Assembly (NCBI GenBank): GCA_023265155.1
Contig: JAHFUL010000002.1
Location: 36,188-80,732 of the forward strand
Direction of reading: 5' to 3'
DNA: 44,545 nucleotides
Source of the DNA: Acidobacteriota bacterium
GTDB taxonomy: Bacteria; Acidobacteriota; Vicinamibacteria; Vicinamibacterales; CAVVIG01
The position numbers and the translations under genes were made by a program. The notes below the pieces were generated by a model. That model saw only the letters and a program-made list of their open reading frames with translations, ran no database searches and was not told where the DNA came from. Below are positions 5,509 to 37,180 of this stretch, piece by piece (the first letter of the stretch is position 1; each line of letters opens with the position of its first letter).

Positions 5509-6207
5509 ATGAGTCGTCCGATCCGCGTACAAGTGGTTCCAACGTCGACGCACGGGCGCTTTCTGGTTCGTGAGCCGGTCCAATCGCGGTCTGCGCCCAT
5601 GCTTGTCGGGTTCCACGGCTATTCGGAGACCGCGGAGGCGCAAATGGATCGGCTCGCCTCCATTCCTGGAGCCGATCGCTGGATGCTCGTCTCGATTCAA
5701 GGATTGAATCGCTTTTATCGCGGCCGCACCGAGGACGTCGTGGCCAGCTGGATGACCCGCCAGGATCGCGAGCTGACGATGGCCGACAATACGGCCTACG
5801 TGTCGGCGGTGGTGGAATCGGTTGCGAAAGCGTCGGATGCAACCGCGCTCGTGTTCGCCGGCTTCTCACAGGGCGCCGCAATGGCGTTCCGCGCGGCCTG
5901 TTCGTCGTCGCGGCGCGTCTGGGGCGTGGTCGTGCTGGGCGGCGATGTGCCTCCGGAGCTCGATCGCGATGTGCTGTCGCGGGTTTCGCACGTGCTGCTC
6001 GGGCGTGGTGAGCGCGACGAGTGGTATTCCAGCGCGAAGCGGGCGGTCGACATCGCCCGTCTCCAGGAGGCGGGCGTGAACCTGGAAGCGCCCTTGCTCG
6101 ATGCCGGGCACGCATGGACCGAGACGTTCAGCCGCGCAGCAGGTGTGTTTCTCGAGCGGCTCGCGCCTACTTCTCCAGCGCCTCCCGAGCCTCCGCGTCA
6201 GTCTTGA
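5509..6207 (+). CDS. Alpha/beta hydrolase (phospholipase/carboxylesterase type)
   Basis: Predicted cytoplasmic serine esterase. It shows the early LVGFHGYSETAEAQ oxyanion region, a nucleophile elbow FAGFSQGAAMAFR, an aspartate in the LLGRGERDEWY stretch and the catalytic His in LDAGHAWTETF, in the order expected for the carboxylesterase/lysophospholipase family. I chose ATG 5509 because GGAG lies just upstream; an in-frame ATG at 5488 would add seven residues. There is no signal peptide. The last 41 bases overlap the convergent BON-domain gene. Substrate cannot be inferred. Confidence 0.85.
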   Translation: MSRPIRVQVVPTSTHGRFLVREPVQSRSAPMLVGFHGYSETAEAQMDRLASIPGADRWMLVSIQGLNRFYRGRTEDVVASWMTRQDRELTMADNTAYVSAVVESVAKASDATALVFAGFSQGAAMAFRAACSSSRRVWGVVVLGGDVPPELDRDVLSRVSHVLLGRGERDEWYSSAKRAVDIARLQEAGVNLEAPLLDAGHAWTETFSRAAGVFLERLAPTSPAPPEPPRQS

Positions 6208-6736
6208 GGTTGTTGGTCACCTGGCCGGCTCCAGCCTGCATGGCCAGCGATTGCGCGAGCTTGCGGTCGAGGTCACTGTGGACGATGCCGGCAAGTGTGA
6301 CGCGATTCCCCTCGACGATGATGTGAATGGGCGGGTTCCTGAGCGTCGAGTACGCCCAGAAGTTGGAGTCCCCGTAAATAGTATTGCCGATTCTTACCCG
6401 GAGCTCCTCGTTGAACTTCGAAGGCGGCAGCACCTCGATCTGGTTCCGGACACTACTGACACCCTTGATCTTCGTGACCCGCTTCTCGATCTCGTTGCGC
6501 TTGGACGGCAGGGTGACTTTGCCCGTCAACGTGGCGACTCCATCCTTCACATTGACCGTCACATCGTCGAAGATGCCGTACTGATCGTAGGTCGTAACGG
6601 TCGAGAGAATCTCGAGCGCGATTTGGAAGTCTTTCCGCGGCTGCTGCGCCTCTACCGCGATCGAGCTCCGCGCCAACAACGTCCACGCGGCCAGCAGGAG
6701 GCCAAGTGTCAGTCCGGTCCTTCTCATCCTGTCCAT
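6167..6736 (-). CDS. Periplasmic protein with two BON domains
   Basis: A signal peptide (MDRMRRTGLTLGLLLAAWTLL... ending near VEAQQ) is followed by two BON (OsmY/nodulation) domains, roughly residues 35-105 and 107-185. The first carries DVTVNVKDGVATLTGKV and KIKGVSSVRNQIEV; the second carries HIIVEGNRVTLAGIV and GAGQVTNNLKTDAE. BON domains are thought to bind membranes or peptidoglycan and to help in envelope stress. The start at 6736 has GGAG seven bases upstream; a longer frame to 6781 lacks this. The 3' end overlaps the hydrolase gene. Confidence 0.88.
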   Translation of the reverse strand: MDRMRRTGLTLGLLLAAWTLLARSSIAVEAQQPRKDFQIALEILSTVTTYDQYGIFDDVTVNVKDGVATLTGKVTLPSKRNEIEKRVTKIKGVSSVRNQIEVLPPSKFNEELRVRIGNTIYGDSNFWAYSTLRNPPIHIIVEGNRVTLAGIVHSDLDRKLAQSLAMQAGAGQVTNNLKTDAEAREALEK

Positions 6737-6899
6737 CCTACAACTCCCCGAAGTTTGCCTAAACCGCAATCTTGCGGGCAAATGAGGTGCCAGGGCGCTG
6801 GCTGGGAATGGTCAGCGAACGGGAGGCGAGCAGAGAGGCGGGCGGGGCCGTATGTCCTGTCGCGAGGACGCGAAATCGGCAGGAGGGCGTTGGCGGCGG

Positions 6900-8039
6900 T
6901 CAGGAGCCGGTGGCGAAGGCCCTCCCGAGACCATAGGTGATAGCCGCCTCGAGGATTCCGACGATGGTCATTTCGGTGCCGCTGGCCCACCACGACCGGG
7001 TGGTCACGAGCGACTTGGCGGCGCCCACCGCGAAGTGCGCTAGGGTGCTGATCACGAATGACGCGATCACGGCTGGCATCCCCACCGCAAAGAAGAACGG
7101 GATGATGGGAATGAAGCCGCCGATCGCGGTTGAGACGCCCGCGGAAAGCGTGGCCTTCAGCGGATTGGGAAAGTTTTCCTCTGCCAGACCCAGCTCTTCG
7201 TGAACGAGCGTGCGCAGGAACTGTTTGGGCTCCTTCTGAATCTTCTCGGCCATGGAACGCGCTTCCTCGGCGGAGAAGCCCTTGAGCTGATAGAAGAGCT
7301 CCAGCTCCAGGAGCTCTTCGTGAGGATCTTCTTCGATCTCGGCGCGCTCGCGGGCGACCTCGGACTCGTACACCTCGCGTTCGGACTTGGAGGCCAGATA
7401 GGCGCCGGCTCCCATCGACAACGCGCTCGCCATGGTGCCGGCCAGGCCAGCCGCGAGCACCACTTCGCTGCCGCCCGTATAACCGGCCATACCCGAGACG
7501 ATGCCGAACACGGCGCCGAGGCCGTCGTTGACGCCATAAATCGCGCTGCCGATCCAGCCGGTGCCGCGCACATGCCAGCGCTCGCGTTTGAGAAGCGCGT
7601 CGAGCGCCGATCGGGGGGTCGGCATGGAGCCGCCGGCAAGCGTCCGAAGCACCACCGCATGGTCGCGCTCCTCGAACATCGCCTCCTCGGCGATTTGGCG
7701 ATCGGCCGGATCGGTCAGCCTCGCCATCAGGTGGTTGTACTCGGCTTCGGCTCTGTTCTCCTCCTGTTCGAGGCGGTGGAGGACAACGTTCTGGTCCGAA
7801 ATCCGCTGGAACCACGTGAGACCGCTCTCCACCGCCGTCCGATCCGGCGCGTGGCCCGTGGCGAGCGCGATTCGTTCGGACCAGCGCGCTGCGTGCTTGT
7901 CCTCCTGGTCGGCGAGGCGGAGGAGAATGTTCTTCCGCTGCTGATCGGGTTCCCGCCCGGCGAGATGCCGATATGTGGTCGCGGCTTCGACTTCGCGCCG
8001 CCACATTTTCTCGACAGTGGCGAGGTTGTGTTTGTCCAC
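6900..8039 (-). CDS. mbfA: Ferritin-like domain plus VIT1/CCC1 membrane domain (MbfA-type iron exporter)
   Basis: Membrane-bound ferritin, 379 residues. The N-terminal part (about 1-150) is a rubrerythrin-like four-helix domain with carboxylate ligand motifs in WRREVEAATTYRHLA, DQEDKHAARW, LEQEENRAEAEYNHL and EAMFEERDHAVVL. The rest is a VIT1/CCC1 transporter with GSAIYGVNDGLGAVFGIVSG, SMGAGAYLASKSERE, a cytosolic acidic helix and three more membrane segments. Homologues such as MbfA export Fe2+ and protect against iron and peroxide stress. The start is the GTG at 8039, sharing one base with the stop of the ZIP gene (TAGTG), so the two are coupled. Upstream in-frame sequence has no homology and lies inside the ZIP gene. 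Confidence 0.92.
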   Translation of the reverse strand: MDKHNLATVEKMWRREVEAATTYRHLAGREPDQQRKNILLRLADQEDKHAARWSERIALATGHAPDRTAVESGLTWFQRISDQNVVLHRLEQEENRAEAEYNHLMARLTDPADRQIAEEAMFEERDHAVVLRTLAGGSMPTPRSALDALLKRERWHVRGTGWIGSAIYGVNDGLGAVFGIVSGMAGYTGGSEVVLAAGLAGTMASALSMGAGAYLASKSEREVYESEVARERAEIEEDPHEELLELELFYQLKGFSAEEARSMAEKIQKEPKQFLRTLVHEELGLAEENFPNPLKATLSAGVSTAIGGFIPIIPFFFAVGMPAVIASFVISTLAHFAVGAAKSLVTTRSWWASGTEMTIVGILEAAITYGLGRAFATGS

Positions 8040-8785
8040 TATCCAATGAACCTTTCGCACACGACGATGGTGATCACGCCCGCGCCGATGAGCGCCACCT
8101 GCCGTACACCGCTGTTGTCGAGCTGACCGCGGTGCAGATCGGGAATCAGGTCCGACATGGCGATGTACATCAGACTTGCCGCGGAGAACGCCAGGACGTA
8201 GGGGCGAATGCCTGGCACGAGGTCCACCGCCGCGTACGCGATGAGCGCGCCGGCGATCCCCGACGCGCCGGACGCGATATTGAGGATCAAGGCGCGCTTG
8301 CGGCTGTAGCCGGAAGCGAGCAGGATGGCGACGTCGCCAATCTCCTGCGGGATCTCGTGCGCGGCAACGGCGATCGCCGTGCTGATGCCGAGCGGCACAG
8401 ACGTCAGGACCGCCGTACAGACGAGCGCGCCGTCCAGAAAGTTGTGAAACGCGTCGCCCAGAATGACGAGGGGCGCCGCGGCGCCGTGCACGTGGCAATC
8501 ATCGGTGTGGCAGTGCCGCAGGAGCACGAGTTTCTCGAGGACGAAGAACGCGAGAATGCCGGCGAGCAGCGTCGCAAAGACCGGGACGGGCTGCAGCGTG
8601 GCGAGCGCCTCCGGGAGCAGTGCGAGCAGTGCCACGCCAAGCAGGGCTCCGACCGCATAGCTGACCAGCCACGGCACGATCCGGCCGCGCACGTCGTCGT
8701 TGAAGAGCAACAGGCCGGACGCGACGAGCAGACCGCCACCGCTGCCCAGGAGGCTGAGCCCGAGAGCGGTCGCGAGGAGTGGCAC
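8039..8785 (-). CDS. ZIP family metal transporter
   Basis: Polytopic inner-membrane transporter of divalent cations (Zn2+, Fe2+ or Mn2+), 248 residues, eight predicted helices. The metal-binding TM4 motif GDAFHNFLDG and TM5 motif AHEIPQEIGD are intact, and a His-rich loop (HCHTDDCHVHG) lies between TM3 and TM4, all hallmarks of ZIP/ZupT-like proteins. It starts at a GTG eight bases after the VWFA gene stop and shares its final base with the start of the ferritin-like/VIT1 gene. An importer and an exporter/storage protein for similar metals in one operon points to metal balance. Confidence 0.92.
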   Translation of the reverse strand: MPLLATALGLSLLGSGGGLLVASGLLLFNDDVRGRIVPWLVSYAVGALLGVALLALLPEALATLQPVPVFATLLAGILAFFVLEKLVLLRHCHTDDCHVHGAAAPLVILGDAFHNFLDGALVCTAVLTSVPLGISTAIAVAAHEIPQEIGDVAILLASGYSRKRALILNIASGASGIAGALIAYAAVDLVPGIRPYVLAFSAASLMYIAMSDLIPDLHRGQLDNSGVRQVALIGAGVITIVVCERFIG

Positions 8786-8793
8786 GCCGTATT

Positions 8794-9903
8794 CTAGCTT
8801 GCGACGTATCCGCGCCGGGCGCGGACCCGGTAGTTCCCTCGGTGCACTTCCACGCGGATCGCGTGCCAGCGGCCGTCCTTCTTCCCGCTGGCGGGATAGC
8901 CCAGGTAGTACTGCTTGCTCATCTCGTCGGCGATGCTCGAGGTCGCCGGGCCGAGATCCCGTGGGTCGCGAATGATTTCCGTGCGGCCGCCGCTGTCGTC
9001 GGTCAGATCCCGCAGTGCCGTGACGTTGACACGTTCATTGGTGCTGTTCCGACCGCTCTGTGTCTGCGGGCGCTTCGGGAGCGGCCATTGCCACTGGGTG
9101 GACCGAAGGAGACCCGGCCTTCGTGGAAATGGCTGCGGCACCGGAACAGGGAATCGGGGCGGCGGCGGCTGCGGCTGGGGGCGTTGTGGAGGCCGCGTCA
9201 CGTAGGTCGTTTCGCCGTCGCCGTCGATGCCGATGGCATAGACGAGCACTTCGCTTTCGCGAATGATCCTCCGTGTCTCGTCGACTCGGGGGCGGATCGA
9301 CGAGTCGTTGCCGTCGGAAATCACAACGATCGCCTTTTTCGTGTTCCGGCCCGTGGCGGCCAGAGGGATCGCCCGCGCGACGGCGTCGTACATCGCCGTT
9401 CCACCGTCGGGTGAAATGCGCGACAGCGCGCGGGAGATCGCCTGCCTGTCCTTCGTCCACCCTTCCAGGAGCAGCGGGGTCTCGTTGAATCGATAGAGGA
9501 AGAACTCGTCCTCCGGGTCTTGAAGCTCGTCGAGGAACTGCTCCAGTGCGGTTCGAGCGGCGCGAATCTTTTCGCCTGCCATGCTGCCGCTCGCATCGAC
9601 CACGATGCCGAGGCTCACGGGGACGCGATCGGCACCGAAATGCGACACACTCTGCAGCACGTTGTCTTCGTACACGCTGAAGTCGTCTTTGGCCAGACCC
9701 GGCACGAACCGGCCGCTCGAATCCGTAACCGTGGCCGTGACGTTGACCAGCTCGACGCCGCTCTTGAACTTGAAGCCTTCAGGCTGATCAGGCGGCGGCT
9801 CGGTCGGACGCTGCTGCGCCTGCACCGAGACGACAGCGAGGAACACGAGAGCGGCGGACATTCTATACGTTCTATGCGCCATCGCGTTTATCCTATGCGC
9901 CAT
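8794..9903 (-). CDS. VWFA-related (acidobacterial type) secreted protein
   Basis: Exported protein with a von Willebrand factor A fold. A signal peptide (MSAALVFLAVVSVQAQQ) precedes an N-terminal beta domain with GVELVNVTATVTDSSG, FVPGLAKDDFSVYEDN and VLQSVSHF. The VWA domain has the MIDAS motif DASGSM, a Thr loop (PDGGTAMYDAV) and VVISDGND. A Pro/Arg-rich insert (about residues 235-280) precedes the last part, ending RVRARRGYV. This architecture is a well-known large family in Acidobacteria; its function is unknown. Three in-frame starts exist (9903, 9882, 9861). The first two are copies within a 21-bp duplication; the third starts directly at the signal peptide. It overlaps the upstream gene stop. 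Confidence 0.9.
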   Translation of the reverse strand: MAHRINAMAHRTYRMSAALVFLAVVSVQAQQRPTEPPPDQPEGFKFKSGVELVNVTATVTDSSGRFVPGLAKDDFSVYEDNVLQSVSHFGADRVPVSLGIVVDASGSMAGEKIRAARTALEQFLDELQDPEDEFFLYRFNETPLLLEGWTKDRQAISRALSRISPDGGTAMYDAVARAIPLAATGRNTKKAIVVISDGNDSSIRPRVDETRRIIRESEVLVYAIGIDGDGETTYVTRPPQRPQPQPPPPRFPVPVPQPFPRRPGLLRSTQWQWPLPKRPQTQSGRNSTNERVNVTALRDLTDDSGGRTEIIRDPRDLGPATSSIADEMSKQYYLGYPASGKKDGRWHAIRVEVHRGNYRVRARRGYVAS

Positions 9904-9913
9904 CGCGTTTATC
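9872..9913. repeat. Perfect 21-bp tandem duplication at a gene junction
   Basis: Two identical 21-base copies (9872-9892 and 9893-9913). Each holds, on the minus strand, the sequence ATGGCGCATAG, which is both a start for the VWFA protein and the TAG stop of the upstream FxLYD-like gene. Because 21 is a multiple of three, the duplication adds seven residues (MAHRINA) to the VWFA protein N-terminus without a frame change. Confidence 0.95.
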
Positions 9914-10618
9914 TACGTGCGGGACGACGTGGTCGTCGCCCGTCCTGAAGCTGACACGATACCGGCCGATGTCGGCCGCGCCTGGCACGCTGACGGTGAA
10001 GGGCGCCTCGGCACCAGGCATGAGGTCGTTGGCCTCGACTACGGCCCGTCCGGTCGTGACAACAGCCCCCGCACTATTGAACAGTAGCACTACCGCGGTG
10101 AGATGGGGGACGTCAATGCCGTTCGCCGGGTTGCGCACGACGCCATGGACGGTCAGACGATCGGCACTCCGATCGTGACCGAGCGCGACGAGCTCGATCG
10201 GCGCGCTCACCGCTCGATCGGCGACGGCAGAACCCGCTGAGCCCAGGGACCCCAGCGAACCCAGCGAACCCGGTGAACCCAGCGAACCCGGTGAACCTAC
10301 AGTCCCCTTATGCCCTACAGGCAGGACGAGGGCAAGCAGGATGACGGTTCCGACGATCAATCCGCCGGCCGCGACAGCAATCGCCATTGGCGAATGCCCT
10401 TCGGACTCCTCATCGACGACAAACATGTTGGCGGCGCGCCGGAGTCCTGGGACCGGTTGAGCGGAAGGCCAGCCTTCATCCCCGATTTCAGCAGCGAGTG
10501 CCGCGATCCGCGCCTCAGACCGGCGCCGCTCGTTACGCACGGAATGCCACGCAATAGCGCTCATCGCGGCGGCCAGACCCAGGGAGGCGAAGGTGATGAG
10601 GATCAGCATGCTATTCAT
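9893..10618 (-). CDS. Membrane-anchored protein with FxLYD-like domain
   Basis: Unassigned protein of 241 residues. Residues 1-20 are a first hydrophobic segment (MLILITFASLGLAAAMSAIAW) followed by a charged stretch. A second membrane segment lies at about 77-98 (IAVAAGGLIVGTVILLALVL). Next comes a Gly-Ser-Leu/Pro repeat (GSPGSLGSPGSLGSL) encoded by a 9-bp DNA repeat, then a C-terminal beta domain (LTVHGVVRNPANG, LTAVVLLFNSAGAVV, PGAEAPFTVSVPG) that resembles FxLYD extracellular domains. The ATG at 10618 follows the TonB gene stop by five bases; the longer in-frame extension lies inside the TonB gene. Likely role: envelope partner of the TonB and VWFA proteins, by position only. Confidence 0.75.
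   Translation of the reverse strand: MNSMLILITFASLGLAAAMSAIAWHSVRNERRRSEARIAALAAEIGDEGWPSAQPVPGLRRAANMFVVDEESEGHSPMAIAVAAGGLIVGTVILLALVLPVGHKGTVGSPGSLGSPGSLGSLGSLGSAGSAVADRAVSAPIELVALGHDRSADRLTVHGVVRNPANGIDVPHLTAVVLLFNSAGAVVTTGRAVVEANDLMPGAEAPFTVSVPGAADIGRYRVSFRTGDDHVVPHVDKRDGA
10235..10297. repeat. 9-bp tandem repeat coding for Gly-Ser-x
   Basis: About seven 9-base units of the type CCCAGCGAA / CCCGGTGAA on the plus strand. On the coding (minus) strand they read GSL/GSP/GSA tripeptides in the linker of the FxLYD-like protein. Same unit family as at 2287-2367 and 44101-44502. Confidence 0.85.
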
Positions 10619-10623
10619 GGGGG

Positions 10624-11664
10624 TTACCGCATCTTGAACTCGACTGACACTTCCACGATGACGTCGACGAGCGTGCCCAGTCGGCGGGCCGGCGAGAATC
10701 GCCACTGTCGTACGGCCTGAACCGCGCGGTCGTTGAGCGCTGACGAAGAGAGCCCCTTGAGAATCCTGACGTCGCCGACCGAGCCATCGCGTCGCACGAC
10801 GATTTCCATGTCGACGGTGCCTTCCCTGCCGCTCCGCCTGGCATCTTCGGGGTAGTCTGGCTTGACCTCGGTCAGCAGGCGGGGTGGTTCGATCCCGGAG
10901 CCAGGGCGGAACGGCCCTCCGCCCGTGCCGCCGCCCGAACCGGCGCCGATCCCGGATCCCCGTCCCTCACCGATTCCCGTCCCGGCTCCGCTGCCCACTC
11001 CCGCGCCGGTCCCGCGGCCGTTGCTCTCCTTCTCTGAGCGTGCCTCTTCCAGGATTCCGATGCGATCCTGAGTATCCGCCGGCGACACCGCAACAGGGGC
11101 CACAATCCTGGGCAATGCTTCGGCGCGGAGCGGTGGAGGGGGTGGTTCGGATGCCTTGACCTCCGGTTCCATCGGTGGTGGAGGCCGGCGAATCGGCAGC
11201 GGACTGCTGATGGCCCGCCTGCCTTCGCGACGAGCCTTCGGGGGTGGCGTCTTCTGAAGCAGTCCACCGCCGCCGCCTCCGCCACCGGGCCCCGGCGATG
11301 CCACGTACACCAACCGCATCTTTGTGAGCGGACGTTCGTCGGGAGCAAGGGTGGTCGCGGTTGGGGCGAGATCAAGGGTGGTGACCAGAATCACCGCTGC
11401 GATGACAACCGCGTGCAGCGTTCCGGATACGGCGAGTCTGACGCCGCCGCGACGAACCGGCGCGCTCGACGCGAAGATCGAGAAAAGAGAGCCTGGAGCG
11501 CGAACCGGCTCACGACGAAGCCTCCGAGCAAGGCGAACGGCATGCGCGTGGGGGATGACGGCGTCCGCGCCGCCGGCCGCCTCGATCGCACGCGCCTCGG
11601 GGACGCCGGCCGCTCGGGCAATCTCCGATGGCGTGTAGACGTCGATGACTGGACCAAGGTGCAT
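10624..11664 (-). CDS. TonB family energy transducer with N-terminal helix-turn-helix-like segment
   Basis: Links proton-motive force to outer-membrane receptors. Residues about 8-45 look like a cytoplasmic helix-turn-helix/MerR-type segment (VYTPSEIARAAGVPEARAIEAA). One membrane helix lies at about 77-98 (VSGTLHAVVIAAVILVTTL). A Gly/Pro-rich periplasmic spacer follows (PPPPMEPEVKASEPPPPPL; a long Gly-Thr-Gly-Ser stretch), then a C-terminal TonB domain (KPDYPEDARRSGREGTVDMEI, LNDRAVQAVRQWRFSPAR). I prefer ATG 11664; a GTG at 11679 adds five residues. It is the first gene of a packed minus-strand set running to the iron exporter at 6900. No ExbB/ExbD is nearby. Confidence 0.87.
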   Translation of the reverse strand: MHLGPVIDVYTPSEIARAAGVPEARAIEAAGGADAVIPHAHAVRLARRLRREPVRAPGSLFSIFASSAPVRRGGVRLAVSGTLHAVVIAAVILVTTLDLAPTATTLAPDERPLTKMRLVYVASPGPGGGGGGGGLLQKTPPPKARREGRRAISSPLPIRRPPPPMEPEVKASEPPPPPLRAEALPRIVAPVAVSPADTQDRIGILEEARSEKESNGRGTGAGVGSGAGTGIGEGRGSGIGAGSGGGTGGGPFRPGSGIEPPRLLTEVKPDYPEDARRSGREGTVDMEIVVRRDGSVGDVRILKGLSSSALNDRAVQAVRQWRFSPARRLGTLVDVIVEVSVEFKMR

Positions 11665-11863
11665 GGTGGCAGGAATCACTGCAGCGAGGCAAAACGCTTG
11701 CCGCGGCAGCGCTGGGGCCGGCCTGATTTTCGGCAGGTTTTTCAGGGCTTTTCAAACGATCCCGCATGACTCCGGCACCGAGCCGTCGCTCGGGCTGTGC
11801 TCTCGTCGTGACAAGCTGTCACCTAATCCCATCTCGGCTCATCGTTGCATCATTGCCATGAGC

Positions 11864-11931
11864 CTCTCAGCTTTCAGCTTTCGGTCCTCAGCTTTCCGCT
11901 TTCGGTCCTCAGCTCTCAGCTCTCGGTCCTC
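11864..11931. repeat. CAGCTYTC/GGTCC short repeat, copy 1
   Basis: Imperfect tandem copies of TCAGCTTTC, TCAGCTCTC and TCGGTCC. An inverted, diverged copy of the same element lies at 13635-13702, on the other side of the SDR and methyltransferase genes. Confidence 0.75.
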
Positions 11932-12024
11932 CGAGGTTCGCCGCAGCCCTCTTTGCCTTCGCCTTTCCTACCTTCGGTTTCACCCTCCTCCCTGAGTCCT
12001 TCGCCCTGTCAGTGAACCTGAGCA

Positions 12025-12036: not shown

Positions 12037-12804
12037 ATGTCATTCCATGGAAGAGTCGCCATCGTGACTGGCGCGACGAGCGGGATTGGTCTGGAAACGG
12101 CTCGTGCATTCGCACGCGAGGGCGCGGACGTCGTCCTGGTGGGACGCAACGAATCAGCCCTGCTGGACCTCAGCAAGGCGCTGGACCTCTCCGGCCATCG
12201 CTCGGTCGGCTGCTGCGCCGACGTCACGGCGCCCGATGGCCCTGAACGCATCGTGCGGACCGCGGTCGAGGCGTTTGGCGGCGTCGACGTGCTGGTCAAC
12301 GCGGCTGGCGTCATCGCCACCGGCTCGGTCGAAACCACGGACGATGAGGCGTGGGATTCGATGATGGCGGTGAATCTGCGCGCGCCGTTTCGGCTGATGC
12401 GTGCTGCGGCGCCGAACCTGAAGCAGCGCAAGGGCGCGGTCGTGAACGTGTCGAGCGTCAACGGCCTGCGATCGTTTGCGGGAGTGCTGGCCTACTGCGT
12501 CAGCAAAGCGGGTGTCGATCATCTGACGCGCTGTGCGGCGCTGGAGATGGCGCCGCATGGCGTGCGCGTCAACGGAGTCAACCCCGGCGTGACCATCACC
12601 AACCTTCATCGCCGCGGGGGCATGGATGAGGCGCAGTACGACGCGTTCCTGGCGCGGTCGAAGGAGACCCATCCGCTTGGCCGGCCGGGGCAACCGCAGG
12701 AAGTGGCGTCGCTGATTCTCTATCTCGCGTCCGATCGCGCCGCCTGGATGACCGGCGAGACGATCCCGATCGACGGGGGGAGGCACCTCACCTGCCTGCG
12801 GTAG
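12037..12804 (+). CDS. Short-chain dehydrogenase/reductase
   Basis: NAD(P)-dependent oxidoreductase of the classical SDR family, 255 residues. The Rossmann cofactor motif is TGATSGIG (residues 11-18); NAAG follows strand 4; the catalytic triad is the Ser in VNVSSVNG plus YCVSK (Tyr and Lys); a C-terminal GETIPIDGG closes the fold. Cytoplasmic. Substrate unknown; it resembles FabG-like and sugar/sterol dehydrogenases alike. It stands alone between repeats, with the methyltransferase gene convergent on it. Confidence 0.93.
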   Translation: MSFHGRVAIVTGATSGIGLETARAFAREGADVVLVGRNESALLDLSKALDLSGHRSVGCCADVTAPDGPERIVRTAVEAFGGVDVLVNAAGVIATGSVETTDDEAWDSMMAVNLRAPFRLMRAAAPNLKQRKGAVVNVSSVNGLRSFAGVLAYCVSKAGVDHLTRCAALEMAPHGVRVNGVNPGVTITNLHRRGGMDEAQYDAFLARSKETHPLGRPGQPQEVASLILYLASDRAAWMTGETIPIDGGRHLTCLR

Positions 12805-12824
12805 AAGGGCTGCGGACGACTGGA

Positions 12825-12940
12825 AATTTACAATTGGGAGTTTTTGGGAATTGAGAATTAGGAATGCGTGAGCCCTCGCAGTCCTGATCCTCAACTAGGA
12901 ATCACGACGAATTCCTAATTCCCGATGTGCATTGTAAATT
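12825..12940. repeat. AT-rich nested inverted repeat between convergent genes
   Basis: Outer arms AATTTACAAT (12825-12834) and ATTGTAAATT (12931-12940), inner arms GAATTAGGAAT (12855-12865) and ATTCCTAATTC (12911-12921), all perfect. Its base composition is sharply unlike the surrounding DNA. It sits where the SDR and methyltransferase transcripts meet and could act as a bidirectional terminator or be a dispersed element. Confidence 0.85.
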
Positions 12941-12955
12941 GACGAATGGGGCAAC

Positions 12956-13543
12956 TCACCTGGGCTTGATCGCTTCGACGAACAGGAGCCCATCGCGTTC
13001 GGCGAGCGTTCGCACGGACCTGAATCCATCCGCCTGCAGCGACGGACCGGGATCGAAGCGTGGTCCACTCCGCGCTGGCAGGTCGGTCATGAGCACGGCG
13101 AGGGCGCGGGTCAGGAGCGCGCCGGCGCCGCCGCGTGCCGTCGCGGCGATGACCATCACGCGCCCGCCAGGACGCAGAATGCGGAGGACCTCGCGAACGG
13201 TGGCCACGCGATCCTCGGCTCGCATAGTCGCGAAGAGGCCTCCGGTATCATCGACAATCGCGACGTCAAATGCGTCGGCATCCGCCGGCAGACGCGTCGG
13301 CGGCGCTGTCTCGATCTCAACGAGCACACCCGCCTGCGCGGCGCCCTTGTTCACACGCGCGGCCGACGCCTCATCGGGAACGATCGCGACTGCACGCCCG
13401 GATAAGCCCACACCCGCGGCGATCGCCCCTAGACGTCCCCCATGCGCGCAGCCAATCTGTACGATCCGGTCGCCCATCTTCACGCCGACCATGCCGGCGG
13501 CGAGCGTGGCTGCATCAGCGCTGCGCGATAGGAAGTTGAACAT
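12956..13543 (-). CDS. Class I SAM-dependent methyltransferase
   Basis: Predicted methyltransferase of 195 residues with a Rossmann-type SAM fold. Motif I is degenerate (VQIGCAHGGRLGAIAAG, with Ala-His where Gly-x-Gly is more usual), motif II is RAVAIVPDE, motif IV DAFDVAIVDDTGG, and the post-motif LRILRPGGRVMVIA is typical of the UbiE/type 11 group. The first ~20 residues (FNFLSRSADAATLAAGMVGV) may form an amphipathic helix. Substrate unknown. A TATAAG hexamer at about 13567 (minus strand) is a possible -10. Confidence 0.85.
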   Translation of the reverse strand: MFNFLSRSADAATLAAGMVGVKMGDRIVQIGCAHGGRLGAIAAGVGLSGRAVAIVPDEASAARVNKGAAQAGVLVEIETAPPTRLPADADAFDVAIVDDTGGLFATMRAEDRVATVREVLRILRPGGRVMVIAATARGGAGALLTRALAVLMTDLPARSGPRFDPGPSLQADGFRSVRTLAERDGLLFVEAIKPR

Positions 13544-13634
13544 GCCGTCGGCTTTTCAGCACCTTATACCACGCTCGCGCGGCTCCGGCGTCCCGCCGGA
13601 TCTGACAGCCGGCATCGAACCGCGGACCATTCAA

Positions 13635-13702
13635 CAGTGACAGATGACAGCTGAGAGCCGAGAGCTGACAGTTGAGCGCTGAAAGGCTGACAGCTGAGAG
13701 GC
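13635..13702. repeat. AGCTGAGAGC-type short repeat, inverted copy 2
   Basis: Imperfect repeats of GACAGCTGAGAG and CCGAGAGCTGACAG, the reverse complement family of 11864-11931. Its distal end supplies CTGACA, the best -35 candidate for the inositol-phosphate synthase gene. Confidence 0.75.
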
Positions 13703-13717
13703 GAAGCTATATAGTCT
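13687..13717 (+). promoter_or_regulatory. Promoter of inositol-3-phosphate synthase
   Basis: CTGACA (13687-13692), a 17-base spacer and TATAGT (13710-13715); an overlapping TAGTCT (13712-13717) ends seven bases before the ATG at 13725. There is no Shine-Dalgarno sequence, so the mRNA is probably leaderless or has a leader of two or three bases. Confidence 0.55.
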
Positions 13718-13724
13718 GGGCTCG

Positions 13725-15038
<1,314 letters not shown>

Positions 15039-15208: not shown

Positions 15209-16456
15209 GTGAAGCGGGTGCCACCGCGCGCATTTCTGACGGTCTGTCTGCTGACCGCGTCGGTGCAGGCCCAGGCGCCCGCCCCGCCCGGTCAGCTGCC
15301 GCCGTTGCCGCTGACGCAACTCGATGAGCGAGCGCTCGCGGCCGATCTCGATAACCGGACGTTCACGCTGATGTTTGCCCAGCCGGTTCCGATTCACGAT
15401 CTCCTGCTGCTTCTCGTGCGCGGAACGACGCTCAGCGTCGTTCCCGCGCCGGACATCGCGGGAACCTTTATCGGCGAGCTCAAGAGCGTGACCGTGCGCC
15501 AGGCGCTCGGGTGGATTCTTCCACCGCTCGGCCTCGACTACTCGATCGAGGGGTCGTTCATCAGGGTCTTCCACCGTGAACCCGGCACCAGAATCTTCAG
15601 CATCAACTACATCGCCACCGAGCGCACCGGCGACTCGGTCATCGGCGGATCCCGCGACTCGGCCGGAGGTTCCGCGCGGGTGACCAGCACGACGGGCTCG
15701 GATATGTTCGCCGAGCTGGCAAAGAGCGTCGGCACGCTGTTGTCCGATCGCGGCGTCTTCAGCATCGACCGGCGAGCGGGTCTGCTGCAGGTCACCGATT
15801 TTCCCGAGCGCCTGGACGCCGTTTCGCAGTATCTCGACGCGGTTCAGGAGCGCGTCCATCACCAGGTTCAGATCGATGCCAGCATCGTCGAAGTCGAGCT
15901 CAATGACGTCAATGGAGCCGCCGCGCAGACACTGGATTGGACGGCACTCGCACGCGCCGGTGTCGAGGCGGGCAGCCCGCCGGGCGCGAGGCCGTTGATC
16001 AACGGCCTGCGCGTCTCCGACGTCTCGCGCTTTTTCACGGCCCTCGCGACACAGGGCAAACTGTCGGTGCTCGCGCAGCCGCGCGTGCTGGCGCTGAACA
16101 ACCAGCCGGCAATTGTACGCGGCACCACCACGGCCGGCGGCGACGTCGAGGAGATCACGCTGTCGGTCACGGCTCAATCGGCGGACGGCATGGTGATGCT
16201 GAGTCTCAGCCCGATCGTGACCGTGCGCGCGGCCGAAGCGAACCGGAACGGGGCCGGCACGACGACCCGGGAGGCCGACACGCTGGCTCGGGTACGCGAC
16301 GGTGAAACGATCGTCCTCGCAGGCTTTACGCGCGACCGCGAGACGCGCGAGCCGAGGAGCGGCGGCATTACGGGAGGATGGTTCGGCCGCACGACGGTGG
16401 TGACGAAGAAGCGAGTCGAGCTCCTGATTCTGCTGACGCCGCGCATAGTGTCCTGA
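15209..16456 (+). CDS. mshL: Secretin of MSHA-type pilus (MshL-like)
   Basis: Outer-membrane multimeric channel subunit, 415 residues. A signal peptide (residues 1-23, ending SVQAQA) leads to a periplasmic part with an STN-like fold (NRTFTLMFAQPVPIHDLLLLL) and N-domains (LLQVTDFPERLDAVSQYLDAV, HHQVQIDASIVEVELND). The secretin core follows, with LSVLAQPRVLALNNQPAIV, LSLSPIV and RDGETIVLAGFTRDRE, ending VELLILLTPRIV. It is compact, as MshL/PilQ-like proteins without extra N-domains are. The start is GTG 15209. The next two genes complete the mshL-M-N order known from Vibrio MSHA loci. Confidence 0.88.
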   Translation: MKRVPPRAFLTVCLLTASVQAQAPAPPGQLPPLPLTQLDERALAADLDNRTFTLMFAQPVPIHDLLLLLVRGTTLSVVPAPDIAGTFIGELKSVTVRQALGWILPPLGLDYSIEGSFIRVFHREPGTRIFSINYIATERTGDSVIGGSRDSAGGSARVTSTTGSDMFAELAKSVGTLLSDRGVFSIDRRAGLLQVTDFPERLDAVSQYLDAVQERVHHQVQIDASIVEVELNDVNGAAAQTLDWTALARAGVEAGSPPGARPLINGLRVSDVSRFFTALATQGKLSVLAQPRVLALNNQPAIVRGTTTAGGDVEEITLSVTAQSADGMVMLSLSPIVTVRAAEANRNGAGTTTREADTLARVRDGETIVLAGFTRDRETREPRSGGITGGWFGRTTVVTKKRVELLILLTPRIVS

Positions 16457-16457
16457 C

Positions 16458-17813
16458 ATGTACGAAGACTATTACGGCCTCGCCGAAAAACCGTTCAGCC
16501 TGACGCCGGATCCGAAGTATCTCTACCGGAGCCAGTCTCACGCCAACGCCTTCGAGCTGCTGCAGTACGCGATCGAACGCCGTGAAGGGTTCGTGGTCGT
16601 CACGGGCGACATCGGCACCGGAAAGACCACCCTGTGCCGTGCCCTGCTCGAACAGATCGATCGCAACACGTTCACCGCGCTCGTGCTCAACCCGTTCCTC
16701 TCCGAAGAGGACCTGCTCAAGCGCATCCTGCAGGACTTCGGCGTCATTTCCCGGGACGACCTGAAGGCCGGCCGCACGGCCGGCGTGACCAAGCAGGACA
16801 TGATCGACACCCTCTACGAATTCCTGCTTGGGCTCGTCCCGCTCAAAGCCGGCGCGGTGCTCGTCATCGACGAGGCGCAGAATCTTCCCCACCATGTCCT
16901 CGAGCAGATTCGCATCCTGTCGAATCTGGAGACCGACAAGGAGAAGCTGCTGCAGATCATTCTGGTGGGGCAGTTGAATCTGCGGACGCTGCTGCGATCG
17001 CCTGAACTGCGTCAGCTCGATCAGCGCGTGTCGATCCGCTACGAGTTGCAGCCGCTCGACGAGGAGACCGTCGCGGCGTATGTGGCGCACCGGTTGACGA
17101 TCGCCGGTGGATCGGCGGCCGTCGCGTTCACTGCGAAGGCACTCGCGCAGGTCCATCGGCTGTCTGGCGGTGTTCCCCGGCTCATCAACCTGATTTGCGA
17201 TCGCGCCCTTCTGGCGGGATTCTCGTTGAGGGCCAGCCGCATCACCCCGGAGATGGTGCGGCATGCGGCAGAGAGTCTTGATCTCCCGTCGGCGGCGCTG
17301 CCTCGTGCCAAATGGCTGACGCGCCGCGCGCCGCTTCCCGTCGGTGCCGCAGTGGTGTTGCTCGGCGCCGCGCTGGCCGTGGGCGCGAGCGCGCTTCTGT
17401 ACGAGCGCCTCGAGATGGATGCCCTCGAGGCCAGCACGACCCCTTCAACGGCTGCGGTGCCCGAGCGCATCGGCGTCCCGGTGGCCAGCGACACTCATCT
17501 GCCGTCCGCCGCGCCGAATCGTCGTCTGCCACGCGACGCGGCGCTGACGATCCTCGTCGGGTCGTATCCGTGGCCGGACGGGGACTCGGAGATCCGATCG
17601 GTGACGGCCTGGCTCGAGGCGACGGGCTATCACGTCTACTACGTTCAGGTCGACCTGGGCAGTCAGGGTATCTGGCGGCGAGTGCTCGCTGGGGCGTACA
17701 CTGACCCGAACGTGGCCCAGGTCGAAGTGGCGCGCATGAACGCGGCGGCACCGGCGCTGGAGGCCCGGATCGTCACGTCGGCGATGGCAAGGGGAGCGGA
17801 AACGCGCCAGTGA
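16458..17813 (+). CDS. mshM: ExeA/MshM-like AAA ATPase with C-terminal SPOR-like domain
   Basis: Assembly ATPase linked to secretin insertion, 451 residues. It opens with the family signature YYGLAEKPFSLTPDPKYLY, then Walker A GDIGTGKTT (residues 50-58), Walker B VLVIDEAQN (D138/E139) and LSGGVPRLINLICDRAL. One membrane helix lies at about 294-314 (VGAAVVLLGAALAVGASALLY). The periplasmic end (about 360-440) resembles a SPOR fold (ILVGSYP, YHVYYVQVDLGSQGIWRRVLAGAY), which binds peptidoglycan. The start is one base after the secretin stop; the stop overlaps the next start (GTGA). Confidence 0.9.
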   Translation: MYEDYYGLAEKPFSLTPDPKYLYRSQSHANAFELLQYAIERREGFVVVTGDIGTGKTTLCRALLEQIDRNTFTALVLNPFLSEEDLLKRILQDFGVISRDDLKAGRTAGVTKQDMIDTLYEFLLGLVPLKAGAVLVIDEAQNLPHHVLEQIRILSNLETDKEKLLQIILVGQLNLRTLLRSPELRQLDQRVSIRYELQPLDEETVAAYVAHRLTIAGGSAAVAFTAKALAQVHRLSGGVPRLINLICDRALLAGFSLRASRITPEMVRHAAESLDLPSAALPRAKWLTRRAPLPVGAAVVLLGAALAVGASALLYERLEMDALEASTTPSTAAVPERIGVPVASDTHLPSAAPNRRLPRDAALTILVGSYPWPDGDSEIRSVTAWLEATGYHVYYVQVDLGSQGIWRRVLAGAYTDPNVAQVEVARMNAAAPALEARIVTSAMARGAETRQ

Positions 17814-19000
17814 GTGTCATTCTGGACGCGCTGCGACGAAAGTCGGGTCGCGACGGCGCGCCCGCAGACCCTGGAGACCCTGCAGACAATCTCCAGACCG
17901 TTCGATCGGAAGCAGTCATGGCGACGCTCGGTTACCCGCGTCGCGAAGGCAGGCCACGCAACACGAAGGGGCTGATCGTCCTTGGGTCGGCGGCGGTCGT
18001 CCTTGGTTTCATTGCCATCGCGCTCCCGGTCAACTACTTCGCGCGTAAATCGCCACCGTCGACGGTCAAACCGGCTCCGGCGAACGTGCCACCAGCGGCC
18101 GCGCCTTCGCCGCCCGTGGCACCTCAAGGCGCACCCGCCGTGCCGTCTGCTGCGTCGCCTCCGCCGGCGCGTCCGTTGACCCCGGCGCCATTCACGGCCT
18201 CGGCCGGTTCCCGAGCTTCAGTGGCGACCCCGTCGCCAGAGCCCGCAGTGTCCCCGGTGCCCACAGGGTCGTCGGCGCAGAGTCGAACGACGCAGACGCC
18301 GTCGATGCCACGGCCCGCACCGCAGGCGCCGCCGGCTCCGCGTACGACAACCGCGACCCCTCAACGGTCACCCGCGCCGGCGCCAGGTCCAGTGACGCCA
18401 TCGCCCGCAGCGAATGGACCGGTCACTCCGCCGCGGGCCGATCATTTCGGGCTCGCGCTGTACTACCACCGCGTCGGCGACTTCCCGAACGCGCTGGCTC
18501 AGTACACGCTTCTGCTCGAGCAGAACGAAGCAAGCGCGGAAGTGCACAACAATCTCGGAATTCTGTACCAGGACCATGGGGACCTCGAGGACGCCACGCA
18601 GCAGTTTCAGCGTGCGCTCGCGCTCGAGCCTCGATACGCCAAGGCACACAACAACCTTGGCGTCGTGTGGATGCGGGGCGGGCGCCTCGAGCAGGCAGCC
18701 GCGGAGCTCCGCATGGCGCTCACGATTGACGCGCGCAGCGTCGAAGCGCTCGTCAATCTCGCGCTGGTGCAGCAGTCGTCCGGGCGGACGGCGGACGCTC
18801 GCGATTTACTGCAACGTGCGGTGGCACTCGATCCGCGCCATCCCGGCTCTCACTACAATCTCGCTGTCGTGGCCGACGGCAGCGGCGACACGCCAACAGC
18901 CGTCGAACACTACCGCGCCTTCCTGAAGTTCGGTGCCGTGACCCGTCCCGACCTCGCCGCGCAGGTGCGCGCCCGCCTCACGGCGCTTGGGTCCACCTGA
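17810..19000 (+). CDS. mshN: MshN/GspB-like TPR protein
   Basis: Inner-membrane pilus or secretion assembly protein, 396 residues. The first residues MSVILDALRRKSG match the conserved cytoplasmic start of GspB/ExeB and MshN-type proteins. One membrane helix is at about 54-75 (GLIVLGSAAVVLGFIAIALPV), followed by a ~130-residue Pro/Ala/Ser linker and about five TPR units (residues 210-385), e.g. AEVHNNLGILYQDHGDLEDA, PRYAKAHNNLGVVWMRGG and PGSHYNLAVVADGSG. The GTG start overlaps the ATPase stop by four bases. Its last residues, GST-stop, are encoded by the first unit of a 14-bp tandem repeat. Confidence 0.85.
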   Translation: MSVILDALRRKSGRDGAPADPGDPADNLQTVRSEAVMATLGYPRREGRPRNTKGLIVLGSAAVVLGFIAIALPVNYFARKSPPSTVKPAPANVPPAAAPSPPVAPQGAPAVPSAASPPPARPLTPAPFTASAGSRASVATPSPEPAVSPVPTGSSAQSRTTQTPSMPRPAPQAPPAPRTTTATPQRSPAPAPGPVTPSPAANGPVTPPRADHFGLALYYHRVGDFPNALAQYTLLLEQNEASAEVHNNLGILYQDHGDLEDATQQFQRALALEPRYAKAHNNLGVVWMRGGRLEQAAAELRMALTIDARSVEALVNLALVQQSSGRTADARDLLQRAVALDPRHPGSHYNLAVVADGSGDTPTAVEHYRAFLKFGAVTRPDLAAQVRARLTALGST

Positions 19001-32113: not shown

Positions 32114-34051
32114 ATGAGAAGCACCATCAGACTGACAGCGGCGGCGGTCGGCGGGTTGGTGCTTCTGGGAACGTCCGCGATCGTGAGCGCGCAGGGCACC
32201 GGAGTGCGGGTGCAGCCTGTCAGCTGGACGGCTCCGATCGCTCCGATCACTCCGGGTTCCATCGAGGGCGTGGTGAGCGATGAGAAGGGCTCGCCGATTG
32301 CCAGAGCATTGGTGTCGGCTCTGGGCACCACGACCACATTCACGACCACCGATCAGAAGGGCCGATTCGAGCTGCGGTCTCTTCCGCCCGGCCGGTATTT
32401 CGTCCACGCGCGTCTGAGTGGATACGCCGCGGCGCGACCGCAGCTGGTCGAAGTTCACGCCAGCTCCCGTGCCGCGACGTCGATCGCGCTCCGTCGCGCT
32501 GATGTGGCCTCGGCGCCCGTTCTGGCCGCCGGCCTGGGGGCCAAGCCGACGAGTCCTGATCCCACCGATACCGACGCGTCCAATCCTTCCAACGATCGGG
32601 CTCCCGACACCGTCGCCGATCCGGATGAAACGGCCTGGAGGCTCAACCACGGGCGGAAAACCATCTTGAAAGACGCGTCGTATTTCGACGGACTTTTCGC
32701 GAGCGGAGCCCCCGCCACTGTTCTGAACCCTCTCGACTATGCTGCCCGGGCGGCTGGCTCGTCCTTGCGGCTGGCGTCGAGCTTCATCAGCGACACACCG
32801 TTCTCCGGTCAGGTCAACCTCCTGACGAGCGGTTCGTTCGAGGCGCCACGAGAGCTCTTTTCCCCGGGCACGGTTTCGCGCGGCATCGCGTATGTCAGCC
32901 TGTCAGCGCCGGCCGGTTCACAGGCGGACTGGACCGTCCGCGGCGCCTTGACCCAGGCAGACATCTCTTCCTGGATTGTTGCCGGGTCGTACGAGACCCG
33001 CGCGACGGCTCACCAGCAGCGTGGGTTCGGCCTTTCGTACAGCACCCAGCGCTACGACGGCGGCAATCCCCTGGCGCTTCGCGAAGTCACCGACGGGAGC
33101 CGCAACGTCGGCGAGATCTACGGGTTCGAGACGCTTACGCTGATGCCGGCGATGTCACTGACCTACGGCGGACGGTATGCGCAGTACGACTATCTCGAAG
33201 GCCGCAACCTGATCAGCCCAAGGGTCGAACTGGTCCTGACCCCCGGCGAGAACGTGCGCATCAACGGAGAATTGTCGCGACGGGCGCTCGCCCCTGGGGC
33301 CGAAGAGTTCCTGCCACCCGGCGACTCTGGGATCTGGCTCCCGCCGCAGCGGACGTTTTCGGCGCTCGAGCCGGGCCGCCCGCTGCAAGCCGAGCAGACC
33401 CTGAACGCCGCCGTTGGTGTCGAACGCGATTTCGGCGCGTCCACCCTCTCCTTCCGGGCGTTTCACCAACGCGTGAGCGATCAGCTGATGACGCTGTTCG
33501 GCGCCGAGATGCCGGATCAGCCGAGCGCCAAGCTTGGACACTACTTCGTCGGCAGCGCGGGGGACGCGAAGGCCACCGGCGGTTCGGCCACATTCGAGAC
33601 CGCCCTGTCCAAGCGGGTTCGCGGGTCCGTCGAGTACTCGCTCACGAACGCGCGGCTCAGACCCGTCGGCGACCTGAAATACATCATCTTGATGGCGCCC
33701 TCTGCCGTGCGCCCGGAAGCCGAACAAATCCACGATGTTGTGGCGTCCATCGAAACGAGCGTGCCCGAGACCGCCACGAGAATCCTGATGCTCTATCGCA
33801 TCGGCAACGGGTTCGCCCACGGATCGCAGGTGTCCACCGGCACAACCACGAAGCGCGCGCTGGACTCCCGCTTCGACCTGCAGGTCCGCCAGTCGCTGCC
33901 ATTCATGGATTTCCGGACGGCTCGGTGGGAGATGCTCCTCGCGGTCCGCAATTTCTTCCGCGAAACAACGGCCGACCAGTCCATCTACGATGAGCTGCTC
34001 GTCATTCGGCCGCCGAAGCGCATCGTCGGCGGTATCACGATGCTTTTCTAG
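32114..34051 (+). CDS. Outer-membrane beta-barrel protein with carboxypeptidase-regulatory-like domain
   Basis: 645 residues. Signal peptide at 1-26 (ending IVSAQG). Residues about 45-125 form a carboxypeptidase regulatory-like (transthyretin-type) domain: GSIEGVVSDEKGSPIARALV, KGRFELRSLPPGRYFVHARL. A ~70-residue Asp/Pro/Thr linker is followed by alternating polar/hydrophobic strands to the end, e.g. SLTYGGRYAQYDYLEGRNL and VELVLTPGENVRINGEL. The terminal residue is Phe (GGITMLF), as in outer-membrane barrels. The TonB plug domain is not evident, so this is related to acidobacterial TonB-dependent-receptor-like proteins but may not be a TonB receptor. Confidence 0.8.
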   Translation: MRSTIRLTAAAVGGLVLLGTSAIVSAQGTGVRVQPVSWTAPIAPITPGSIEGVVSDEKGSPIARALVSALGTTTTFTTTDQKGRFELRSLPPGRYFVHARLSGYAAARPQLVEVHASSRAATSIALRRADVASAPVLAAGLGAKPTSPDPTDTDASNPSNDRAPDTVADPDETAWRLNHGRKTILKDASYFDGLFASGAPATVLNPLDYAARAAGSSLRLASSFISDTPFSGQVNLLTSGSFEAPRELFSPGTVSRGIAYVSLSAPAGSQADWTVRGALTQADISSWIVAGSYETRATAHQQRGFGLSYSTQRYDGGNPLALREVTDGSRNVGEIYGFETLTLMPAMSLTYGGRYAQYDYLEGRNLISPRVELVLTPGENVRINGELSRRALAPGAEEFLPPGDSGIWLPPQRTFSALEPGRPLQAEQTLNAAVGVERDFGASTLSFRAFHQRVSDQLMTLFGAEMPDQPSAKLGHYFVGSAGDAKATGGSATFETALSKRVRGSVEYSLTNARLRPVGDLKYIILMAPSAVRPEAEQIHDVVASIETSVPETATRILMLYRIGNGFAHGSQVSTGTTTKRALDSRFDLQVRQSLPFMDFRTARWEMLLAVRNFFRETTADQSIYDELLVIRPPKRIVGGITMLF

Positions 34052-37100: not shown

Positions 37101-37180
37101 ACAGTGGCGTGGGGCAGGGAACCCGATTCACAGTGATGCTGCCGGCAGCGCGGACCGTCGCGCGCAGCGCGGCGCAGTGA
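34166..37180 (+). CDS. Membrane histidine kinase with PDZ, GAF and PAS domains
   Basis: Sensor kinase, up to 1004 residues. Starts: GTG 34166, ATG 34181 or ATG 34274, the last only 12 residues before the first membrane helix (about 49-66). A PDZ domain follows (74-155; AVEVAPASGGAAAGIQRGDV, LLAVDSVPVRTPDEVLDY), probably periplasmic, then about seven membrane helices (161-415). Cytoplasmic domains are GAF (about 470-625), PAS (650-770, NENILESLEDGLIVFDED), HisKA with H788 in GVAHEVNTPLTGISSF, and HATPase with NLFLNARDAMP, DTGSGIPP and GTGLGLSISYG. The stop overlaps the response regulator start (GTGA), so they form one two-component system. Signal unknown; the PDZ suggests sensing of a peptide or envelope protein end. 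Confidence 0.92.
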   Translation: MAGLTMSNVAVSPSNRGLRDDSDSLVRSEPVDRSALMATKETRWFAWGRSVLAVALVLVLLGLGISNIALRARWHPVEDGVLWGARTEGVTAVEVAPASGGAAAGIQRGDVLLAVDSVPVRTPDEVLDYQRHADPGRPLTYTLARLGDQRVLDVSLASAPRLGSLYYVLATVGLFTLLVGASVRLRRPRDQATLHFFWLCVAFFGTFTFSFNGPLDRLDWVFYWGDAIATVMLPPLLLHFTLGFPQRPSALDRSRWSPVLLPIYLPALLIAVARIVAVSRAAADGPAFSRTLGLLDRAEPLYLFTCAMAAVLVLARASEEIESLTGRRQLRWIACGTVLGVGPFALGYALPWALGSDPPFGLQLTAIPLCLVPLTFASAIVRYRLRDVEVIVKRGLGYAAFLGATAGLFFALRRTVGFTFGNDADAHNWVVAFLATIVVVLLAQPVKAAVQTALDRAFYRDRYDYRRALVAFARDLNSDLDINRLSQRLVDRIVETLVLDRMALMLADDRHGNFRAVDDYGFAGVVPALERGSSFTARLDTGHIVALDGSDPIAVARFSAEDVEFWRDQGIYYFVPCIHEGAAIAVMALGREETDEPFNSEDLALLVAVAGQVATAIENGRLYRQLHVKAEELGRLREFNENILESLEDGLIVFDEDERVVRWNRALEHFYGIRQADAMGRTLEELFDVPFVEALRAARRENPLGARLFKVPLTARRPRPEAGASASDPLRLLVNATVVPLRGGANPEAVAGTILLLEDLTDRVRLEEQLQISEKMASIGLLAAGVAHEVNTPLTGISSFTQMLLEGAVPGDPRTILLEKIERQTFRAARIVNGLLTLSRPGTAGSERTNVDLNDVITDVFSLLEHQFTAGKIKVRRELSPDRVDVLGIEHQLQQVFLNLFLNARDAMPRGGWLTVTTRAEGDQFIAEVSDTGSGIPPEHLARIYDPFFTTKAIGRGTGLGLSISYGIVHEHGGSIRCDSGVGQGTRFTVMLPAARTVARSAAQ

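Follow-up and report, generated by a model that had tools for sequence, protein, structure and literature searches.

The stretch of DNA considered here (the window, 44,545 nt) comes from an Acidobacteriota bacterium of the order Vicinamibacterales (GenBank assembly GCA_023265155.1, contig JAHFUL010000002.1, positions 36,188 to 80,732 of the forward strand) and is part of a 2.53-Mb genome that is 66.5% complete and distributed over 114 contigs. Between positions 6900 and 11664 its minus strand carries five closely packed genes, which code for a TonB-family protein, an FxLYD-like membrane protein, a VWFA protein, a ZIP-family metal transporter and a fusion of a ferritin-like domain with VIT1. 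The first three form a core that is found across the order and goes with a conserved sigma-54-type promoter motif, and the last two form a second, separable pair; an earlier note on this DNA had proposed that all five constitute a metal-handling envelope operon. The features of the locus are the following.

10624..11664, minus strand: TonB-family protein, composed of a helix-turn-helix (HTH) domain, one transmembrane (TM) helix, a Gly/Pro-rich linker and TonB_C (72.1 bits, cut-off 24.6)
11497..11664, minus strand: N-terminal MerR/BldC-like HTH domain of the TonB protein, residues 1-56, cytoplasmic, from the family alignment
9893..10618, minus strand: FxLYD-like protein with two TM helices (NF038353, 23.8 bits)
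8794..9903, minus strand: VWFA protein of the TIGR03436 family, predicted to be secreted (196.5 bits)
8039..8785, minus strand: ZIP-family divalent metal transporter (PF02535, 98 bits; HNFLDG, HEIPQE)
6900..8039, minus strand: ferritin-like domain fused to VIT1 (Er-VIT1, MbfA-like; VIT1 215.6 bits)
6167..6736, minus strand: BON-domain protein, second sigma-54-type unit of the locus (BON 68.9 bits)
11689..11702, minus strand: sigma-54-type -24/-12 motif GGCAAGCGTTTTGC, approximately 25 nt upstream of the TonB ATG
6778..6791, minus strand: sigma-54-type motif GGCACCTCATTTGC upstream of the BON gene, which the preceding T makes a perfect TGGCAC-N5-TTGC

The open reading frames and the sequence bear out the five minus-strand genes and the junctions of +5, -11, +8 and -1 bases that had been described for them. 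The TonB frame runs from an ATG at 11664 to the stop at 10624, with an in-frame GTG at 11679, and is followed at +5 by the FxLYD-like frame (ATG 10618 to 9893), which the VWFA frame (ATG 9903 to 8794) overlaps by 11 bases. A perfect 21-bp tandem duplication at 9872-9913 covers the FxLYD stop and the VWFA start, so that VWFA has two possible ATG starts, at 9903 and 9882. ZIP (GTG 8785 to 8039) lies at +8 from VWFA and the ferritin-like/VIT1 gene (GTG 8039 to 6900) at -1 from ZIP. The BON gene, which is next downstream and follows the operon in most loci, and the conserved promoter motifs had not been listed in the earlier note. Rfam at gathering thresholds gave no match in the window, which therefore contains no known riboswitch.

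Conservation of the gene order was evaluated by searching 120 relatives and reading 60 stretches: 24 near close ferritin-VIT1 matches, 14 near distant or degenerate ones and 22 near FxLYD matches outside the family of this genome (f1). The stretches, the window and three further loci from named FxLYD relatives provided 45 loci that hold VWFA; the other 18 named-relative loci appear to repeat contigs already counted. FxLYD precedes VWFA in 42 of these 45 loci and TonB precedes FxLYD in 37, and VWFA adjoins FxLYD in all 22 FxLYD stretches outside f1. ZIP follows VWFA on the same strand in 34 of the 42 loci with enough sequence (it is inverted in three and missing in five), ferritin-VIT1 follows ZIP in 19/39, and the adjacency of ZIP and ferritin-VIT1 is present in 23/26 close loci. 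The five-gene run is far beyond chance because the same order recurs in many genomes, and the earlier note, which had tied its proposal to a gene order conserved in relatives, is upheld on that point.

The two parts of the run differ in their distribution. FxLYD matches are found in 76/120 relatives and ferritin-VIT1, at 68-87% identity, in 24/120 (f1 accounts for 21, out of its 26 members, f11 for two and f7 for one). Among 247 genomes across the phylum, the strong full-length FxLYD matches fall in the order of the window, and in the 14 weakly matching stretches read outside it none had TonB, VWFA, ZIP or BON neighbours. Named FxLYD relatives are mostly metagenome-assembled genomes of Acidobacteria/Vicinamibacteria; two of the 21 are labelled Acidimicrobiia, a label that is probably wrong for one of them. 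In families outside f1, f7 and f11 the core occurs without ferritin-VIT1, and in some of them also without ZIP or with ZIP inverted, while the ZIP/ferritin-VIT1 pair occurs without the core in L059, L070 and L072, and ferritin-VIT1 alone in L068 and L069 (five intact loci; the L085 locus is degenerate). There are thus two separable modules: TonB-FxLYD-VWFA is an order-wide core, and ZIP with ferritin-VIT1 is a second pair that can be separated from it.

A conserved order might also be kept only because this neighbourhood rearranges slowly, in which case the genes would have no common function. The surroundings lend themselves to that idea: a short-chain dehydrogenase/reductase (SDR), a methyltransferase and a myo-inositol-1-phosphate synthase (window 12037-15038) flank the operon in most relatives, the synthase, which is divergent from the operon, and the methyltransferase doing so across the order, and an alpha/beta-hydrolase downstream of the cluster is kept in f1. 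The methyltransferase shares the strand of the operon and, in genomes without the SDR, immediately precedes TonB. However, overlapping starts (-4 and similar) link TonB, FxLYD and VWFA in distant families, and the promoter motif stands before the first gene and almost never before the inner ones, which makes slow rearrangement a very improbable explanation of the order. Behind the inositol-phosphate synthase, the plus strand of the window (15209-19000) carries in a row a secretin-domain protein, an AAA_22 ATPase and a TPR protein.

Sigma-54 promoters are characterised by GG-N10-GC at -24/-12 within the consensus TGGCAC-N5-TTGC. A motif with this layout, in this sequence context, recurs upstream of TonB and of BON; the BON site is the highest-scoring sigma-54-type site of the whole window, and the TonB site departs from the consensus by A/G in place of C. 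The strict pattern is present in 17/29 TonB upstreams and 21/33 BON upstreams (0.15 and 0.23 expected from shuffles of the same composition), and at eight other genes of the locus it was found in 2/38 cases for FxLYD, 1/42 for VWFA and none for ZIP, ferritin-VIT1, methyltransferase, SDR, inositol-phosphate synthase and hydrolase. With a weighted motif score, whose weights were chosen by the analyst, 20/32 TonB and 34/36 BON upstreams reach the cut-off of 7 or more, compared with 7/276 for the eight other genes of the same loci. Over the whole window, counts of simple patterns show a small excess (4 vs 1.3 expected, with one site counted twice, once per strand), and the stricter TGGCAY-N5-TTGCW is rare in the genome (4 vs 2 for the reversed control); the case for sigma-54 therefore rests on position and conservation. 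The motif accompanies the core, as opposed to the metal genes: L050 has lost TonB and FxLYD and carries it ahead of VWFA, and the five loci that have only ZIP/ferritin-VIT1 or ferritin-VIT1 lack it.

The same TonB site can be seen in another way, as an operator palindrome for a repressor, for instance the HTH of TonB itself, and not as a promoter. Its near-palindromic form GGCAA-N5-TTGCC is found in 11/31 TonB upstreams, and conservation extends to its internal bases. Of six genomes searched for the exact pattern GGCAAGNNTTTTGC, three (this one and two of five relatives) have it, each in a single copy that precedes this TonB. Nevertheless, the variants GGCGAGCGTTTTGC, GGCAAGGAACTTGC and GGCACGGTTGTTGC break the dyad and retain GG and GC at the sigma-54 spacing, the BON sites share the sigma-54 positions only and not the dyad, and most sites are located 30-60 nt before the predicted start codon; an operator in place of a promoter is accordingly considered improbable. 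A second dyad, far upstream of TonB (GACAGGTGTCA and similar), was evaluated as an activator site and dropped, as it is inconsistent across loci. Short degenerate repeats (variants of GAGGACCGAAAGCTGA) lie between the SDR and TonB genes (window 11850-11960), and a similar GAGTTCT repeat is present upstream of the ferritin-VIT1 gene in L068.

The genome has both RpoN (E 1e-65) and a sigma-54 activator, as the use of such promoters would require. At 34166-38691 of the window (plus strand), a histidine kinase with PDZ, 7TM-type, GAF and PAS regions overlaps by four bases a sigma-54-dependent response regulator (37177-38691), and the pair is retained in this neighbourhood throughout the order. In 10 of 12 genomes, this one among them, the ortholog of this activator (70-88% identity, with the next-best matches at approximately 47%) shares a contig with the locus at a distance of 13-41 kb; in the other two it lies on a different contig. 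The response regulator is a candidate for activating both the TonB and the BON promoter, a proposal that follows from linkage, which is not proof of control. Just upstream of the kinase (32114-34051, plus strand) lies a gene for a receptor-like protein with a CarboxypepD_reg domain and a match to TonB-dependent beta-barrels.

In the TonB protein, the SxxxH of the TM helix, equivalent to residues S16 and H20 of E. coli TonB, is invariant (25/25). The first ~50 residues form, in the family alignment, a conserved HTH-like domain, for which Pfam gives partial support (HTH_17 in 7/28 members, and AbiEi_4 with 28.9 bits, above its cut-off, on the ortholog L130). The AlphaFold2 model of L130, which is an ortholog and not the window protein, has the three helices of an HTH fold (predicted confidence, pLDDT, 88), and the best PDB folds retrieved with it by Foldseek are BldC, Xis, BmrR, SoxR and RacA (E 0.009 and weaker, none below 0.001). 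A PDB sequence match, 8vd6 (E 1e-6), was not used, given that no stretch of it passes by itself. HTH-TonB is found once per genome, at this locus, in 9/10 genomes, the tenth (G063) being without a match. DNA binding by the HTH is uncertain, since the charge of the domain is not conserved (isoelectric points range from 4.7 to 11.3) and f1 members have a short wing.

The second protein of the core, FxLYD, has a domain match just above the cut-off (NF038353, 23.8 vs 23 bits) and is organised as a first TM helix, a cytoplasmic loop with an arginine-rich stretch, a second TM helix and a C-terminal FxLYD beta-sandwich, modelled by AlphaFold2 with a pLDDT of ~96 and matching generic beta-sandwiches. 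By the positive-inside rule, the sandwich would be periplasmic. An LF-type dipeptide motif precedes a TM helix in the cytoplasmic parts of both TonB (11482-11487) and FxLYD (10421-10426), and its frequency (27/32 vs 7.8 in shuffles; 34/40 vs 13.3) is only a lead, because the sequences compared are not independent and the limits of the linkers were set only roughly; it may possibly denote a common binding partner of the two proteins. An extension of these observations would make HTH-TonB a membrane-tethered regulator that directly relays to its own near-palindromic sigma-54 promoter whether the envelope is energised or receptor-bound, with FxLYD sharing the cytoplasmic LF contact motif, a proposal that is speculative and rather unlikely.

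The VWFA protein is clearly assigned to its family (TIGR03436, 196.5 bits vs a cut-off of 81.25; VWA_2, 60 bits), and sequence reading identifies an N-terminal signal-like segment without a lipobox cysteine. The residues of the metal ion-dependent adhesion site (MIDAS), D103xS105xS107, T169 and D197, are complete and invariant (25/25), and the profile matches MIDAS-type ligand-binding VWA domains, including that of the fimbrial protein Mfa5. The earlier note had associated this site with a metal-related role; the site is indeed intact, but a MIDAS employs a metal ion to bind a ligand and, by itself, is not evidence for metal transport. The genome also has many paralogous stretches of this VWFA (23 matching pieces).

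The metal pair has the residues expected of its families. The ZIP motifs HNxxDG and HExPxE are present in the window protein and in 28/37 and 30/37 relatives. The ferritin-like domain, whose Rubrerythrin match is below the cut-off (20.3 vs 22.8), has the diiron-type residues E16, E46, H49, E94, E124 and H127, all of them kept in 15/15 members except E124, which is found in 10 close members only; it is fused to VIT1, and the family profile matches the solved VIT1 structure 6iu3 (E 2e-42). The protein is a ferritin-like/VIT1 fusion of the wider kind, but the NCBIfam MbfA equivalog is missed by far (18.2 vs 450 bits). The notion of a dedicated metal-homeostasis operon, in which TonB energises the uptake of metal or siderophores through the outer membrane, FxLYD and VWFA bind the metal or hand it on, ZIP imports it and ferritin-VIT1 stores or exports the excess, draws on the position of ZIP and ferritin-VIT1 in the conserved run, behind VWFA with junctions of 8 and -1 nt that are similar in f1 relatives, and on the frequency with which ZIP follows VWFA (34/42). 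This nearly gapless arrangement stands, but the metal role of the unit as a whole does not fare well. The core is found without ZIP (5/42), with ZIP on the other strand (3/42) or without ferritin-VIT1 (20/39), the five intact loci described above have metal genes without the core, and the operon holds no TonB-dependent receptor. The promoter motif tracks the core, and the Fur-type site that was looked for upstream of 11664 was not found (best 9/19 matches vs a shuffled mean of 9.8). A dedicated metal operon is therefore an unlikely interpretation.

The interpretation favoured here, with a probability of approximately 0.58, is that the locus is a sigma-54 (RpoN)-dependent, energised cell-envelope operon of this acidobacterial order, to which a metal importer/exporter pair has been appended in one branch. 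The ancestral core, if co-transcribed from an active sigma-54 promoter, would build an inner-membrane, energised, envelope-spanning assembly, in which the HTH-bearing TonB would couple through its TM helix to ExbB/ExbD and power the assembly, the two-TM FxLYD protein would present its beta-sandwich in the periplasm, and the secreted VWFA would bind a surface or periplasmic ligand through its MIDAS; BON would be a second sigma-54 unit beside the core. In one branch, the ZIP importer and the ferritin-like/VIT1 protein, a putative oxidiser-exporter of iron (or Mn), were presumably inserted immediately after the core, an arrangement under which the proteins for metal entry and detoxification would be made along with the envelope module and the cell could import divalent metal while also detoxifying it. 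Of this mechanism, the regulatory step has the strongest support; the assembly and the ligand we infer.

Several observations weigh against this interpretation. All the relatives come from one order and the loci are therefore not independent. As to the promoter, 12/32 TonB upstreams have no motif scoring 7, the shuffles control for composition only, the near-palindromic form of the TonB site would also suit an operator, and of two further loci, L062, from which TonB and FxLYD have disappeared, carries the site at -207, and L065 lacks one. The candidate activator is linked to the promoter by position only, in genomes with 23-129 matches to such activators each. Finally, the Pfam scan of 30 window proteins contained no ExbB/ExbD family, and no search of the genome was aimed at ExbB/ExbD.

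All the parts of the locus belong to known families, from which they depart in their combination. TonB resembles the ExbB/ExbD-coupled protein of E. coli in its TonB_C, its single N-proximal TM helix with SxxxH and its long Gly/Pro-rich periplasmic linker, but has in addition the ~50-residue MerR/BldC-like HTH before the TM helix, FxLYD/VWFA neighbours and a sigma-54-type motif. The HTH has the predicted three-helix fold and the best PDB matches of the BldC/MerR type; unlike these, it is membrane-tethered, with a wing shortened in f1 and an unconserved charge. The VWFA protein is a TIGR03436 member by profile and intact MIDAS, in a subgroup that is fixed behind TonB-FxLYD and has a Pro/Gly-rich insert. 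Ferritin-VIT1 shares with the MbfA/erythrin-VIT1 exporters of alpha-proteobacteria the ferritin-like N-terminal domain with diiron-type ligands and the VIT1 domain, and differs from them in its equivalog score and in its place after ZIP, within an operon that has a sigma-54-type motif; the alpha-proteobacterial MbfA is reported to be an iron exporter whose genes are under Irr (PMC7762939). Sigma-54 has been linked to the bacterial exterior (Francke et al., 2011; PMC3162934), in a work whose available passages make no mention of Acidobacteria, and here too envelope genes lie behind -24/-12 motifs. A 2025 survey places TonB (COG0810) in predicted, unconfirmed sigma-54 regulons of Flavobacteriia (PMC12316311). 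Searches of open-licence PMC papers, which give weak negatives, found no literature on the TIGR03436/VWFA-related Acidobacterial domain, none relevant to a TonB fused to MerR/HTH, and none on FxLYD in connection with a VWA domain and TonB. As far as these searches show, the HTH-bearing TonB, the order-wide TonB-FxLYD-VWFA unit and its sigma-54-type promoter motif are new.

One of the many VWFA proteins of TIGR03436 is now placed in an order-wide unit, together with an HTH-bearing TonB, an FxLYD membrane protein and a sigma-54-type motif. This setting can be tested, as an energised envelope assembly under the control of sigma-54 to which one branch would have added metal homeostasis. If the regulatory role proposed for TonB were true, the protein would be a transducer and a transcription factor in one, and its fusion to an HTH, if it binds DNA, would represent a new way of coupling the energy of the envelope to transcription.

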